64,000 nucleotides of DNA from an archaeon (GTDB lineage Archaea > Nanobdellota > Nanobdellia > Pacearchaeales > GW2011-AR1): the NCBI GenBank assembly GCA_018657525.1, contig JABHWZ010000005.1, forward strand, positions 1 through 64,000. Reading direction: 5' to 3'. The notes beneath the pieces are model-generated. The model was not told the DNA's origin. It ran no database searches and saw only the letters and a list, made by a program, of their open reading frames with translations. This document shows, one piece after another, positions 16,673-59,572 of the stretch. Numbering within the stretch: the first letter of the stretch is position 1; every line of letters begins with the position of its first letter. The translations under genes were made by a program, and so were the position numbers.

Positions 16673-16721
16673 ATGTCGAGTTTACTCGATATTCGAACTT
16701 GTTCGAAGATTCTTGGTTAAT

Positions 16722-16842
16722 GAGCCTACTCGGATTTTAACCGAGGACCTCTGCCTCTCTTAGAGATTTCTAGAGAGAAAACAACCCAAACGGATTGAAC
16801 TCATATAAGAGCAGCGCTCTGAACAGACTGAGCTATAGGCTC
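16722..16842 (-). tRNA. tRNA-Ile(UAU), 47-nt intron at 37/38 (16757-16803)
   Basis: Acceptor GAGCCTA/TAGGCTC, D-stem GCTC/GAGC, anticodon stem CTGCT/GGCAG with loop CTTATA-A, T-arm CTCGG-TTAAAAT-CCGAG. BHB: CTTA/TAAG 4-bp helix with 3-nt bulges TA|T and AG|A. Confidence 0.88.
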
Positions 16843-26047: not shown

Positions 26048-26116
26048 TAATTGTCGATGCGTATGGCTAATCGCTTGATGATAAATTTTATTGTGCAGAA
26101 ATAATCATCATTAGGG

Positions 26117-26231
26117 GAATCGTTCACAGGATCGCAAGAGAAAACGATTCTAACTCACAAATCTTGTCAGAGATTTGTCAATATATTTTTTTCTACCACT
26201 GTAGGTTCTTTTTTTGAAAAAAGAACCCCAT
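26117..26231 (+). repeat. multi-hairpin element, copy A (contains H1 hairpin 26117-26150)
   Basis: GAATCGTT-18 nt-AACGATTC; ACAAATCT-AGATTTGT; CACTGTAG; GGTTCTTTTTTTGAAAAAAGAACC. Confidence 0.75.
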
Positions 26232-32901: not shown

Positions 32902-33963
32902 ATGGTAAGTAAATTATTAGAAGACAATGAAAAACTGGTAATAGAATTTGGAGCAAAAAGAATCCAAGAAATAAAAAAGCTTCCTAATTTTTATACATTT
33001 AACAAAAATTTAATTTATTCTCATAGAGATTTTGATGTTTTCCTAAACGCACTACAAAAAGGAGAAAAATGCGCCATAGTTTCAGGAGTTAATGCATCTG
33101 GGACCCTTCATCTAGGTCATAAAGTAGTTTTTGATACAAATCTTTTTTTCCAAAAAGAATATAACCTACCAGTTTTTATTCCAATTTCAGATGATGAAAG
33201 CTTCGTAGCAGGAAAAGTCAAAACCCAAGAAGAAGCAAAAAAGAATGCAATGCGGTTAGCAAAAGAAATGTTGGCCTATGGTTTCGATCCAAACAAAACA
33301 TTTTTCATTATAGACAATATATATACAAATATTTACAACTTTGCATTCAAAACAAGTACAAAAATAAATTATTCAGAAATAAAATCTACCTATGGTTATT
33401 CGCCAGACCAGAACATAGGATTACATTTTTATCCGGCAGTTCAAGCAGCGCATATATTACTTCCATTCGAAAAGTTAGGAATAAAAAACATCTTAGTTCC
33501 AATTGGACCTGATGAAGATGCACATTTCAGAATAGCAAGGGATATTGCGGGAAAATTAGGCATACAAAAACCCTCAACAATTCATTTAAAATTTATCCCA
33601 GGATTAGATGGACAAAAAGCATCCAAATCAAAAAATAATGCAATTTTTCTTAATGATTCTCCAGAAATTCTAAAAAAGAAATGCGGAAAAGCTCTGTCTG
33701 GAGGAAAAGAAACAATCAAAGAACACAGACAGCATGGAGGAAATCCTGAAAAAGACATCTCTTGTCAATATTTATCAAACTTTATTTATGATAAAAACCA
33801 AACAGAAAAATTATTCGATAAATATAGGAAAGGAGAACTATTGAGTGGGGAAGTAAAAGAAATATTTTTTAAAGAATTTAATAAAATATTACAAAACTTT
33901 CAAGAAGGAGTAAAAAATATTAATCTAAAAGATTTAGAAAAGATGATTTTAAGAAATGAATAA
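32902..33963 (+). CDS. trpS: tryptophanyl-tRNA synthetase
   Basis: HLGH and KASKS signatures; SGGKETIKEHRQHGGNPEKDISCQYL typical of archaeal TrpRS. Confidence 0.85.
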   Translation: MVSKLLEDNEKLVIEFGAKRIQEIKKLPNFYTFNKNLIYSHRDFDVFLNALQKGEKCAIVSGVNASGTLHLGHKVVFDTNLFFQKEYNLPVFIPISDDESFVAGKVKTQEEAKKNAMRLAKEMLAYGFDPNKTFFIIDNIYTNIYNFAFKTSTKINYSEIKSTYGYSPDQNIGLHFYPAVQAAHILLPFEKLGIKNILVPIGPDEDAHFRIARDIAGKLGIQKPSTIHLKFIPGLDGQKASKSKNNAIFLNDSPEILKKKCGKALSGGKETIKEHRQHGGNPEKDISCQYLSNFIYDKNQTEKLFDKYRKGELLSGEVKEIFFKEFNKILQNFQEGVKNINLKDLEKMILRNE

Positions 33964-33964
33964 A

Positions 33965-34460
33965 AACGATTCTAACTCATAAATCTTATTCAAGATTTGT
34001 CAATATATTTTTCTTTTGCATTGTAGATTTGCTCGAAGAGTACACCTTGCGTGCTCTTTTTGAAAAAAGAAGGGGGAGGGCCGGGAATCTTCCGTCGGAG
34101 GCCATTAAAAGAAGATTCTCACTAACAAATCTTTGATAAGATTTGTCTAACTATTTTTCTTTTGCACTGTAGATTTTCTTTTTAAAAAGAAAATCCCATT
34201 TTCTATCACTGTAGTTTCTTTTTTCCGACAAAGGAGGAAAACTCGAAGCGACTATGAAAATCCCAAAAATAAGGGAAAATTTCATTCGACAAAGTCGAGA
34301 GCGAAGCGACTCGTTCGCTACTTTTTTTGAAAAAAGAACCCCAAAGGGAATCGTTCGCAGGAGGCAAAGAGAAAACGATTCTAACTCACAAATCTCTAAT
34401 GAGATTTGTCTACATATTTTTTTCTACCACTGTAGTTTCTTTTTTTGAAAAAAGAAACCC
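33965..34460 (+). repeat. intergenic array of multi-hairpin elements (about 4 copies, some partial)
   Basis: Repeating order H1, ACAAATCT/AGATTTGT hairpin, CACTGTAG, poly-T/poly-A hairpin; complete H1 at 34085-34118 and 34348-34381. Confidence 0.72.
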
Positions 34461-34493
34461 AATATTTATAAACATAATTTCCCAAAATAAGAT

Positions 34494-54425: not shown

Positions 54426-54644
54426 AATTTTTTCTTTGAACTTTCCAATTATTTATCAATTTCATGGATTTCGAACGTTCGGTTTTTCCCTCAAACATTC
54501 TTACTGGCATTCCACTAACAGCTTTTATTTTCATATAATTTCTAGTCAAAAATACTTTATAAACTTTTCTATTCTGTTACCACTACATAATAAGACAAAT
54601 AACAATTTACGTTACTTGCATCTAACAAATAACAAACTATTAAA

Positions 54645-54684
54645 CCTAAAACCAATCACGAATAAAAAGCACAATTCAATTTTT
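54645..54684. repeat. 40-bp perfect direct repeat, left copy
   Basis: cctaaaaccaatcacgaataaaaagcacaattcaattttt identical to 57171-57210. Confidence 0.95.
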
Positions 54685-56094
54685 TTCAATCCAACTAAAA
54701 ATTTCTTTTTTAATATTTTCCTTTTCTGCATCTCTTAATGACAAATGCCCTCCCTCAAAACAAAGAACCTTGCCTCCACAAATGGACTTTATAATCTTAA
54801 GTTGATTTATACAATTTAAATCCTTTTTTCCATGAATCAAAAGACAATTATTATTAAATTTAGAAGTGTTGATAAATTTATCTTGGATTAATTCATTAAA
54901 CCCGCCATCATTCATTCTAATCACATTTTTAAAACCATTCTTGATAAATTTTAAAACTTTAAAATTTTCCTTAAAATTTGGATAAAATTTTTTAAAACTT
55001 AATAAGGGGGAAATTAAAATTCCTTTCATATTAAAAAAGTTTTGTAAAAGCTTAATACCAATAAAACTTCCAAAACTAGAACCTAATAAATATATATTTG
55101 CTTCCTCAAATTTTAATGAAAACTCTTTACCACCAAAAAATTCATTAAACTTCCCTCCTTCCTTAATGTATTTAACTAATTCAAAAATCGCTCTGGAAGG
55201 ATCTTCCTTGAGAAACCGTCCTTCACTTTCATAACACCCACTATATCTTGGGAACAAAACAGCATATCCCCTTCTAGAAAATTCTTTCATAAGAATTTGA
55301 CTTTTAGGAAATGAAGGAAATCCATCCAATAAAATTATTAATTTCCCCCTATTTAAAAACTTATTAGGCATACAAAATTCAAAAAAAATTTCATCATATT
55401 TACTTTTAAAAATCACTGGTTCCCTCAAAATATTTTCAAAATTAACTTTAAGATTTCTATATTCTGAATCTTCAATCAGCCTTTTCAATTTTTTTTCACC
55501 AAATTTTAAAAGAAGAAACCTTGTCAATTCTTCTTGTCTATTAAGATGCATTAAATGATTTTCTATTCTTTCTTCCTGAGGATTTAAACAATTTTTATAG
55601 TATAACAATCGAGTTATCAGTGTAGAATCAAGTCCAGCATAAAAGAATTCCATAGCCTCACCAAGAATCTGAATTTTAGCTTTAACTTTATCTTGACGAA
55701 ATAATGAATAAAAATCTTTTATATGTCCTGGACGCAAATTAATATTCCCCTTAGGTAAATCTTCTTTTTTATCTAGCATAAATTGAAACCCATAATCATC
55801 ATTTTTTTTCATCACCCATGAAAATTCGTGAAAGGTATATTTTTGAAGATATCCTTTCTTCTTAAAATCCTTCTTCAAATCACCCAACTTATCTAAAAAC
55901 TTCTTTGTCACAAAAATATCTAAATCTGTATCTTCTTTCAAAGCCTCCACCTGCCCAGTCAAAAAATATACCGCCCAACTACCTGTAATTACAACCTCCT
56001 CATTCAAATTATGTTTATTAATTACCCATAGAAAATCAGAAAAAATTTTATGACTCATCCAACTATAATCTAAATGAAGCTCTGTATTAGACAT
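54676..56094 (-). CDS. nucleotidyltransferase-like domain fused to alpha/beta hydrolase
   Basis: N-term ITGSWAVYFLTGQ...DTDLDIFVTKKFLDKL; C-term LIILLDGFPSFPKS, LLGSSFGSFIGIKLL nucleophile elbow, CLLIHGKKD, GGHLSLRD. Confidence 0.7.
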   Translation of the reverse strand: MSNTELHLDYSWMSHKIFSDFLWVINKHNLNEEVVITGSWAVYFLTGQVEALKEDTDLDIFVTKKFLDKLGDLKKDFKKKGYLQKYTFHEFSWVMKKNDDYGFQFMLDKKEDLPKGNINLRPGHIKDFYSLFRQDKVKAKIQILGEAMEFFYAGLDSTLITRLLYYKNCLNPQEERIENHLMHLNRQEELTRFLLLKFGEKKLKRLIEDSEYRNLKVNFENILREPVIFKSKYDEIFFEFCMPNKFLNRGKLIILLDGFPSFPKSQILMKEFSRRGYAVLFPRYSGCYESEGRFLKEDPSRAIFELVKYIKEGGKFNEFFGGKEFSLKFEEANIYLLGSSFGSFIGIKLLQNFFNMKGILISPLLSFKKFYPNFKENFKVLKFIKNGFKNVIRMNDGGFNELIQDKFINTSKFNNNCLLIHGKKDLNCINQLKIIKSICGGKVLCFEGGHLSLRDAEKENIKKEIFSWIEKN

Positions 56095-57073
56095 TTGCTT
56101 TCCCGACCCCCCTGTATCTTCTCAATACTTCAATGACATGTTGTGTACCTATTTTCTTTAACTCTCCACTAGTTAAAACTCCAGATTCATATTTTGAGCA
56201 AATATCTTGAAAAACCACTTCATCTTCCAAAGTATATCCTAAAATTTCTATCATAGCATCCTCCTCAAGATTGCCCCCATTTCTCCTATGTTCCTCTAAT
56301 GTCGAACCTCCCCCACTTCTAGATCGATTAATCTTCTTTTGAATAGTAACTTCATCATCACTTAAAACAATGTAACTATTTATCTTTTTTCTTGTCATCT
56401 TTCCCCCATTCATCCCCCTCATAAAACGATGATAAATTCCAGCAGGTAAATTAATTCCTTTTGCCTTTCTCAAAATATCTCTAATAAAAGAAACATTAGG
56501 ATCCTGATTTATTCCTCCCACAATTAATGCTGAAGAAGAATTTGTTTCCTGAGCATAAACTAAATCAGATAAAGTCATTAAAAAACTTTGATAATGAGAA
56601 AATTTATTTGTTCCAAAAATCCTCTCGAATTTCCTTTGATCAATTAATCTGCCAAGAGAAATTCCTCTCTTAAAATATCTACCAAGTTGATTAGACTGAT
56701 ACATGAAATCAATATTTCCAATATCTACCCCAGAAGATTCTAAATAAGGGATAAAAATTTTTTCAAAATCCTCTTTAAAATCCCCCTCACTTATCCCCTT
56801 AACACTTTGTGCCTCAATATCTGCAGCAGAAATAACTACTTTCTTGCCACACTTTTGAAAAAATTTAATTTCATCAAATAAAACCTTTGTTCCTAAATGA
56901 ACTATTGAAGGATTTAAAACTCCTGCAATAACAAAAAAATCCCTATTCAATATCTCTTCTAACCCCCTTTGAGCATAAATAATATTTCTAGTTAAAAGAT
57001 GATTCATCTTTCCAAAAATTCCTTCATCCACTATTGGCCTAACATTATTCTTTAATTCTGTTTTAAATTTCAT
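56087..57073 (-). CDS. divergent TrpRS-like class I aaRS paralog
   Basis: VHLGT (HIGH-like), GGKMTRKK (KMSKS-like, degenerate), SGGGSTLEEHRRNGGNLEEDAMIEIL shared with TrpRS. Confidence 0.72.
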   Translation of the reverse strand: MKFKTELKNNVRPIVDEGIFGKMNHLLTRNIIYAQRGLEEILNRDFFVIAGVLNPSIVHLGTKVLFDEIKFFQKCGKKVVISAADIEAQSVKGISEGDFKEDFEKIFIPYLESSGVDIGNIDFMYQSNQLGRYFKRGISLGRLIDQRKFERIFGTNKFSHYQSFLMTLSDLVYAQETNSSSALIVGGINQDPNVSFIRDILRKAKGINLPAGIYHRFMRGMNGGKMTRKKINSYIVLSDDEVTIQKKINRSRSGGGSTLEEHRRNGGNLEEDAMIEILGYTLEDEVVFQDICSKYESGVLTSGELKKIGTQHVIEVLRRYRGVGKANV

Positions 57074-57170
57074 ACCATTTACTATAAATTAGAATTTTTA
57101 AAACTTCTGTTAGTTAAATCAACTAAAAATTAACTACTGCAAAAATCCCTAACTTAATTTTTTTCAAACC

Positions 57171-57210
57171 CCTAAAACCAATCACGAATAAAAAGCACAA
57201 TTCAATTTTT
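57171..57210. repeat. 40-bp perfect direct repeat, right copy
   Basis: Identical to 54645-54684; overlaps the 3' end of the NUDIX-sulfotransferase gene. Confidence 0.95.
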
Positions 57211-58343: not shown

Positions 58344-58967
58344 TTAAATCAATCCTTGGATAGTATGCATAATATATTCTGAAGTATTTTTAATGCTATC
58401 CTCTGCATTTAATCGATAAATAACCCCCGAGTCCCTTTGCTTTCTTATAGCTTCATCCATAAATCCCAAATATTTTCCAAAAATATCTGAAACAATCTCC
58501 GGAGATCTTTTTTTAATCACTTCATTCATTGTCAAAGGATTTTGAAACTCTAATAAAAAATGAGCATTCTCAATTGAAAAATATCCCCCCTCTTGATTTA
58601 ATTTATCTACAAATAAACATGATTCTTTCAATCCCTTTCCAGTCCTTTGCATGCAATGTGCTACACACGAAGAATAAATAGTTATAAATCCTCTGTCCTC
58701 CAAAACAATATCTTTATCCATCTTAAAAGTCAACTCATCTCTACGCACAGTACTTTCCAAATTAGCCAAAATTATTTCTTCCACAGGAGCATTATGATAC
58801 CAATCCACTCTTTGAGAAAAATCTTTAGGAAATCTTTCATCCAAAGGTAATCTTTTCGAAGCTACCCCCACAGCCAATCCCCTTTTTTGTAACAAAGATA
58901 AAACAGCATTTATTTGTTCAGTCTTTCCAGAAGTATCAATTCCTCCAATCTCAAATACCTTTTTCAT
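58344..58967 (-). CDS. thymidylate-kinase-like P-loop kinase
   Basis: FEIGGIDTSGKTEQINAVLSLLQKRG; DIVLEDRGFITIYSS. Confidence 0.7.
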   Translation of the reverse strand: MKKVFEIGGIDTSGKTEQINAVLSLLQKRGLAVGVASKRLPLDERFPKDFSQRVDWYHNAPVEEIILANLESTVRRDELTFKMDKDIVLEDRGFITIYSSCVAHCMQRTGKGLKESCLFVDKLNQEGGYFSIENAHFLLEFQNPLTMNEVIKKRSPEIVSDIFGKYLGFMDEAIRKQRDSGVIYRLNAEDSIKNTSEYIMHTIQGLI

Positions 58968-59572
58968 TTGCCCTTCACTAAAAGTTTTAATATTTGATTT
59001 CTAGTCTTCACAAGATCACAATTAACCACACAAGGAACATTATTTGTCTTGGCATCTTGTAATAAATAATCTTGTATGATTCTTGCTTTAGGAAATCGCT
59101 CATAAAATCTCTTGGGATTTATTCCTCCAAACTCTTTTTTTCGTCTTGCAATATTTAATAAATGATTTTTTTCAGAACACCCCACCATAATTAAATGAAA
59201 ATTCTTCTTCTTCAAATATTCTTCAAAAAAAGAAGGAATTATCTGAACACCCTCAATTATGGTATCCTTTCCTAAAACATATGCTCTCTCAATAATCCTG
59301 ATTATTGAGAGTAAAATTGATTCACAATATTTTATGAACGAACAAATAACACTCATCTCTGAATCATCGTTTACGTGTTCCCAAGCAGTTGTAGAATTAT
59401 AATATAAATATGGTTGATCATTCTTAGAACTAAACCCCCTAATCGCCTCCCTAACAACATCTACATCCACTATTTGGCTTATCTTCAATTTCTTCCCCAA
59501 TTCTAAACTAAGAGCAGATTTTCCCACATAAGAAGCCCCTCCAATCAAAATTATTTTGGGATTTTTAACCAT
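58964..59572 (-). CDS. 2-phosphoglycerate-kinase-like P-loop kinase
   Basis: IILIGGASYVGKSALSLELGKKL; VDVDVVREAIRG; TIIEGVQIIPSF. Confidence 0.65.
   Translation of the reverse strand: MVKNPKIILIGGASYVGKSALSLELGKKLKISQIVDVDVVREAIRGFSSKNDQPYLYYNSTTAWEHVNDDSEMSVICSFIKYCESILLSIIRIIERAYVLGKDTIIEGVQIIPSFFEEYLKKKNFHLIMVGCSEKNHLLNIARRKKEFGGINPKRFYERFPKARIIQDYLLQDAKTNNVPCVVNCDLVKTRNQILKLLVKGK

Follow-up and report, generated by a model that had tools for sequence, protein, structure and literature searches.

How two genes came to lie between perfect copies of a 40-bp sequence that also forms the 3′ end of the adjoining gene is the question raised by positions 54645-57210 of the window, the 64,000-nucleotide stretch of archaeal contig JABHWZ010000005.1 (assembly GCA_018657525.1) analyzed here. 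Small DPANN archaea are thought to exchange genes heavily, and a scarred two-gene module, together with similar scars in the same genome, offers an entry point to the uptake of gene modules without recognizable mobile elements. The assembly is a metagenome-assembled genome of 14 contigs and 828,154 bases, 84% complete. Coordinates of the features are collected in Table 1.

Table 1. Features of the module, its surroundings and the short-insert loci. Window coordinates unless a contig is named.
Feature	Coordinates	Strand	Remarks	Basis
Archaeal TATA-type promoter-like element	54552-54593	-	GTTTATAAAG on minus strand; belongs to genes downstream of left copy, promoter-like only
Left repeat copy	54645-54684	.	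Transplanted sulfotransferase 3′-end fragment; gives hydrolase its last two codons and stop	Exact match
NTase-alpha/beta hydrolase fusion, 472 aa	54676-56094	-	N-terminal NTase GSWAVYF...DTDLDIF; GSSFGS nucleophile elbow, HGKKD, GGHLSL
TrpRS-like paralogue, 328 aa	56087-57073	-	HIGH degenerate (HLGT), KMSKS-like GKMTRKK; 28% identical to canonical TrpRS
Intergenic region, 97 nt	57074-57170	-	Inside module, upstream of TrpRS-like gene; unique in sampled genome
Right (native) repeat copy	57171-57210	.	(E)KLNCAFYS codons, stop and 11 nt downstream of sulfotransferase	Exact match, homology
NUDIX-sulfotransferase fusion, 386 aa	57182-58342	-	Hosts the native repeat copy	Pfam and homologues
dTMP-kinase-like P-loop protein	58344-58967	-	Upstream in same gene string	Weak, E 0.0043
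2-Phosphoglycerate kinase / mevalonate-3-phosphate 5-kinase family kinase	58964-59572	-		E 3.8e-39, below curated cut-off
Nucleotidyltransferase-like protein, stand-alone	59565-60407	-		Weak, E 0.0077
Short-insert locus L110 (contig C5)	7274-7500		48-bp repeats
Short-insert locus L111 (contig C6)	2127-2308		39-bp repeats
Short-insert locus L107 (contig C2)	2890-3062		29-bp repeats
Short-insert locus L117 (contig C9)	7235-7460		24-bp repeats

The 40-mer, CCTAAAACCAATCACGAATAAAAAGCACAATTCAATTTTT, was located by exact match search in two direct copies, and no third copy was found in the 828,154-base assembly with up to 3 mismatches allowed. In 60 simulations of order-3 Markov versions of the window, the longest exact direct repeat was 21 bp or shorter (mean 17.8); the 40-bp perfect repeat is real and far above chance expectation. 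On the outer (promoter and TrpRS-upstream) side, flank similarity stops at the repeat edge, the coding-side flanks share a weak AT-rich likeness that is within chance, and the flanks beyond the repeat align no better than shuffled sequence. The repeat is made up of 29 bp of the sulfotransferase 3′ coding end and 11 bp downstream, and the left copy is read in a different frame from the right, GAA AAA AAT TGA forming the end and stop of the hydrolase. Unique target sequence is thus present on both sides with no further homology, the pattern of a mechanism-neutral insertion with variable target duplication. A preliminary description of the locus had reported the perfect direct repeat and its position, diverging flanks, a right copy that encodes the sulfotransferase C-terminus EKLNCAFYS and its stop, a left copy that supplies the NTase-hydrolase stop in another frame, an interval holding the NTase-hydrolase fusion and the TrpRS paralogue, and no recombinase inside it. 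All of these points were reproduced: both positions gave exact matches, the divergence is sharp on the outer side, and the interval holds two genes only, neither of them a recombinase.

Relatives of the NUDIX-sulfotransferase were used to assign the native copy. Both of its domain names are firm (Pfam sulfotransferase, 1.7e-27; NUDIX, 3e-14), and the PDC-S07 hit that PADLOC gave for the NUDIX domain is a generic one. Full-length sulfotransferase homologues were found in 3 of 211 genomes including this one, the others being two Pacearchaeota only, Candidatus Pacearchaeota PFOR01000023.1 and UBA92 DANJ01000033.1 (the same-family genomes G030 and G211 contain the same contigs), which marks the source of the window as a Pacearchaeota-type DPANN archaeon. 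The full-length G030 homologue is 43% identical and ends in EKMKKLSPYFGYS, compared with LKMEKLNCAFYS here and KKMKDLSSYFGYI in the UBA92 homologue; the homologue at locus L004 has the C-terminus KKLSPYFGYS, compared with KMEKLNCAFYS in the window protein. Because the homologues end at matching residues, which the right copy encodes, the right copy is native and the left copy extra; the sulfotransferase 3′ end was duplicated. The earlier phrase "captured sulfotransferase 3′ end" accordingly keeps its core, the duplication, for which the homologue C-termini speak, and loses the word "captured", since the sulfotransferase gene is intact.

Downstream of both Pacearchaeota sulfotransferase homologues lies a convergent SDR-type gene, with no TrpRS-like and no NTase-hydrolase gene; at 43% identity, these homologues are too distant to reveal the state of this site before an insertion. 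Scans of 85,488 species genomes and of viral contigs found no exact copy of the 40-mer elsewhere, and neither an empty site nor a single-repeat junction turned up in the genomes covered. In a computed loop-out junction a single 40-mer joins the sulfotransferase to the 54600 flank, and the promoter-like element is intact; homologous loop-out across the 40 bp is only a possibility, one that would leave the sulfotransferase intact. The promoter-like element is also 86% identical to positions 53739-53780 of contig C9; the two stretches lie upstream of different genes.

The two genes of the interval are co-directional and overlap by 8 bp. Assignment of the TrpRS-like protein to its family is firm (Pfam PF00579, 3.6e-18), the nearest solved structure by sequence is 3a04, a tryptophanyl-tRNA synthetase (3.8e-25), and the protein scores 175 bits against the curated TrpRS equivalog cut-off of 451. 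Besides it the organism encodes a canonical TrpRS (32902-33963, with HLGH) and, on contig C8, another synthetase of the TrpRS class, TyrRS-like, which makes the module gene a third, divergent paralogue. Its identification as the canonical tryptophanyl-tRNA synthetase was rejected on its HLGT and GKMTRKK motifs, its score below the cut-off and the presence of the canonical enzyme elsewhere in the genome. Pfam matched the NTase-hydrolase only weakly (E 0.017 and 0.12), and its hydrolase half has homologues that match Hydrolase_4; of the domain names first proposed, sulfotransferase, NUDIX and TrpRS family are secured by Pfam, while NTase-hydrolase comes from motifs, weak Pfam matches and the Hydrolase_4-matching homologues. 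An alignment-free structural model of the fusion reached a pLDDT of 35 and was of no use. No other NTase-hydrolase fusion turned up in the 58 genomes nearest to this one or in 384 from the class, the relatives detected being those of the hydrolase half alone. Hydrolase homologues in G026, G027 and G028 end at nearly the same position, so the repeat gives the hydrolase a stop at the natural end of its domain, and the hydrolase is not visibly truncated.

No transposase, integrase or Cas1 is among the two genes, no PADLOC defense-system match was found in the module, a repeat search detected no inverted repeats at its ends, and the sampled genome holds no other copies of note of the module sequence. 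The module and its host are alike in codon composition (GC3 0.21-0.22 in the module, 0.16-0.26 in the host), which gives no indication of a recent foreign source. Foreign composition was not seen, and a viral origin was set aside after viral contigs and phage records, scanned with the exact 40-mer and at protein level, yielded nothing.

The module adjoins a gene string of the order NTase-kinase-kinase-NUDIX/sulfotransferase, in which the small kinase at 58964-59572 sits. The hydrolase homologue is adjoined by a nucleotidyltransferase gene (Polbeta, 6.6e-8) in G441 and by an NTase-NUDIX gene in G028, so that the NTase-hydrolase fusion unites two functions encoded side by side in other genomes. 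Genes resembling class-I synthetases occur close to the hydrolase homologue in G026 (PF09334, 1.2e-6) and G028 (PF00133, 3.7e-4, below cut-off). These arrangements hint at a shared pathway, in which the synthetase paralogue might activate a substrate and the hydrolase act on the product. The neighbors in G028 and G441 are not detectably related and those in G026 and G028 only marginally so, and a conserved association of hydrolase and synthetase paralogue is only suggestive. If the module moved, the TrpRS paralogue and the NTase-hydrolase would be an exchangeable add-on to the NUDIX-sulfotransferase cluster. The G030 neighborhood echoes the theme of the cluster with P-loop kinases, an NTase and a different hydrolase. 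Hydrolase homologues (L103, 1012-2211; L105, 4907-6112 and 7236-8423; L203, 3857-5994) occur near synthetase-like paralogues (G026, G028) or nucleotidyltransferases (G028, G441, G411), possibly an unrecognized pathway.

Similar scars were sought in 570 kb of the genome as exact repeats of at least 22 bp around inserts of 15-6500 bp, with unrelated sequence outside. The scan returned 17 pairs, mostly intergenic or at gene ends, compared with 1 in 200 kb of G002, 2 in 200 kb of G193 and 10 in 200 kb of G011, where most fall within repetitive coding regions. The comparable scars of this genome measure 24, about 26, 29, 39, 40 and 48 bp. On contig C5, a 117-bp dispersed element, which has 40 BLAST matches in the genome, lies between 48-bp copies of the last codons of a gene, its stop and the few following bases. 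In a further case, on C6, 39-bp copies that take in a start codon enclose a 104-bp element; C9 carries copies of this element, and the homology to them spans the insert and excludes the flanking repeats. At 26114-26229 of the window, a dispersed element lies between 26-bp copies that are 88% identical (26075/26231), and on C9 a 178-bp insert with 24-bp flanking repeats lies beside a tRNA-like 3′ end. Because all remaining inserts of this type in the stretches sampled are small (20-576 bp) or resemble dispersed-repeat pairs, a gene-bearing insert of 2.5 kb is an extrapolation from them. A duplication abutting the 3′ end was found in 3-4 of 19 dispersed-element arrays; the scar of this element erodes or is not always made. 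The geometry at 54645-57210 belongs to a recurring class, with few gene-bearing members. In G011, a relative assembled in 4 contigs, the copies of duplicated gene ends lie 3.4-3.8 kb apart.

Several observations accompany the scan. Short inserts (104-178 bp) between perfect repeats of 48, 39, 29 and 24 bp occur at gene or tRNA ends at four loci (Table 1). The dispersed element (~117 bp, range ~100-130 bp) has four potential hairpins, is often tandem, and occurs at 26114-26229 and 33963-34472 of the window and in about 17 further arrays of the genome; its 3′ part is also present in 14 of 188 other family genomes. It had no Rfam match and may be MITE-like or a structured RNA. In UBA92, the 3′ end of a gene recurs as a 48-bp copy of 90% identity (L066, 2214-2261 and 5229-5276) across a 3-kb interval with VapBC-like and lipoprotein-like genes, and contig C1 of G011 carries a 416-bp perfect duplication of a gene 3′ end (82343-86558, L148) and one of 282 bp, 99% identical (162219-165898, L152).

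The event that we consider most likely, with confidence evenly divided for and against it, is an insertion of the two-gene module with duplication of a 40-bp target at the sulfotransferase 3′ end. A 2.49-kb fragment carrying the TrpRS-like and NTase-hydrolase genes would have landed directly after the NUDIX-sulfotransferase gene, with 40 bp of the target duplicated in the process, the upstream copy still ending the sulfotransferase and the downstream copy abutting the inserted hydrolase, whose stop codon would now lie inside the duplicated target. The simplest mechanics would start with a break or a pair of nicks in the 3′ end of the sulfotransferase gene, staggered by ~40 nt; A-rich microhomology (AAAAATTGA), common to the hydrolase and sulfotransferase ends, could guide the joining of one end, and fill-in of the staggered break would yield the second repeat copy. 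Of the readings first suggested for this locus, insertion with target duplication best fits the scars seen across the genome, and a cassette able to loop out is a possibility only; that the whole module was the mobile part we infer, as we do the staggered-break joining and the recency of the event.

In favor of insertion are the native right copy, the homologues that lack the module downstream, the 17 scars and the untruncated hydrolase; against it are the shared codon composition, the absence of integrase, transposase and terminal inverted repeats, and the small number of scarred arrays. The clearest precedents are three scars in which a dispersed element is the insert and local target sequence the flanking repeat. 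Precedent for the geometry is given by archaeal integrated elements in 3′-distal gene regions with direct repeats of similar size (PMC6563490). A broader proposal, which we put forward tentatively and regard as doubtful, is that an integrase-independent insertion process making variable target duplications of ~24-48 bp, often at gene ends, installed both the ~100-130-bp elements and, at least once, a two-gene metabolic module, which in principle could be lost again by recombination without harm to the target gene.

Known systems were compared with this arrangement. In crenarchaeal integrated elements the direct repeats measure 29-69 bp; of 68 thaumarchaeal elements, 14 lie in the 3′-distal parts of protein genes, and one of these replaced the stop codon of its target; the smallest cryptic element is 2.6 kb (PMC6563490). 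The module resembles these elements in its flanking repeats, in having the target gene's 3′ end completed by one of the copies, and in its small size; they differ in being defined by an integrase, and by verified empty sites where possible, whereas the module has neither an integrase nor a replication gene. Although its repeats bound the module and one overlaps a gene 3′ end, as att sites would, the module was not filed as an integrative element, because an integrase is the defining feature, the only tyrosine recombinase found in the genome is Xer-like and the repeat is not dif-like. Transposons and casposons likewise duplicate the target on both sides and insert near gene 3′ ends. Their duplications are of fixed, mostly shorter length and the elements have terminal inverted repeats, whereas the scars here measure 24-48 bp and the module lacks terminal repeats; both were rejected for want of terminal inverted repeats and of a transposase or Cas1, and for the varying scar length. 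Break-repair insertions (filler DNA, staggered ends, end joining) share variable target duplication, junction microhomology and arbitrary cargo, but are known mainly from eukaryotes and from bacteria with Ku/LigD. MITE/REP-like elements have a counterpart in the short structured dispersed elements that this genome carries between duplicated target, but the module is single-copy and contains two genes.

Among the alternatives to module insertion, the main rival, given a real if minor chance, is copying of the 40 bp alone. An older sulfotransferase-TrpRS-like-hydrolase string would have received a copy of the sulfotransferase end behind the hydrolase, changing its last codons, by backward template switching or ectopic repair. 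This would be a much smaller event, it fits the unchanged composition of the module (GC3 0.21-0.22), and the junctions have A-rich microhomology (GAAAAA..TTG). The 416- and 282-bp gene-end repeats of G011 enclose ordinary cellular genes, one of them RadA-like, and there fragment copying is as likely as insertion. The hydrolase homologues, moreover, lie near a nucleotidyltransferase (G441, G028) or synthetase-like genes (G026, G028), and for this reason the module genes are plausibly part of the neighboring cluster. However, without the left copy the hydrolase would gain 9 residues (WIEFNSLLFVRCK, then stop) and be longer than its homologues, and the clearest precedents in this genome are dispersed-element insertions between duplicated target, not pasted fragments.

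That the 40 bp are attL and attR of a tyrosine-recombinase element at the sulfotransferase 3′ end, non-autonomous or decayed, mobilized in trans and excised as a circle, is improbable. Geometry and size match archaeal elements (PMC6563490), and the 48-bp, 90% gene-end duplication of UBA92 bounds a 3-kb interval with VapBC-like genes, but the module has no integrase, and across the genome PF00589 matched one protein only, Xer-like, 269 aa long and encoded on contig C6. The repeat lacks a dif-like palindrome, with 6 of 11 arm matches against a random mean of 6.5, and an Xer/dif site was rejected because the repeat is not palindromic. The target gene, present in 3 of 211 genomes, is rare and a poor choice of att site, and comparable scars differ in length (24-48 bp) and in sequence.

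Decay of an ancient duplication, tandem or segmental, that covered the sulfotransferase region, with the second sulfotransferase copy deleted save 40 bp, is more improbable still: a partial copy with its 3′ end kept does lie beside a tandem paralogue pair at L066 (2214-2261), and G011 retains 80 of 90 residues of a gene at 162219-162500, but here the 40 bp are identical with nothing homologous beyond, which demands exact-edged deletions on both sides soon after the duplication. Least probable of all is an artefact of metagenome assembly, since, although the analysis was made from the assembly alone (14 contigs, 84% complete) and contig C1 ends in a ~144-bp repeat, so that assembly breaks at repeats do occur, a false 40-bp join would still require either the 40-mer at each side of the module or a circular module with the 40-mer in it, ordinary short reads are longer than the repeat, and the genes on either side have no frameshifts.

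A reverse transcriptase was rejected as agent of a target-primed insertion, since the single one found in this genome looks, judged from sequence, like that of a diversity-generating retroelement. Its locus on contig C8 (L195, 1291-2292 and 236-994) adjoins genes with a repeated lectin-like C-terminal tail, as is typical of the targets of these elements, and is probably such a retroelement. Elsewhere in the window, on the minus strand at 16721-16842, an Rfam tRNA that was missed by ARAGORN spans 122 nt and probably contains an intron.
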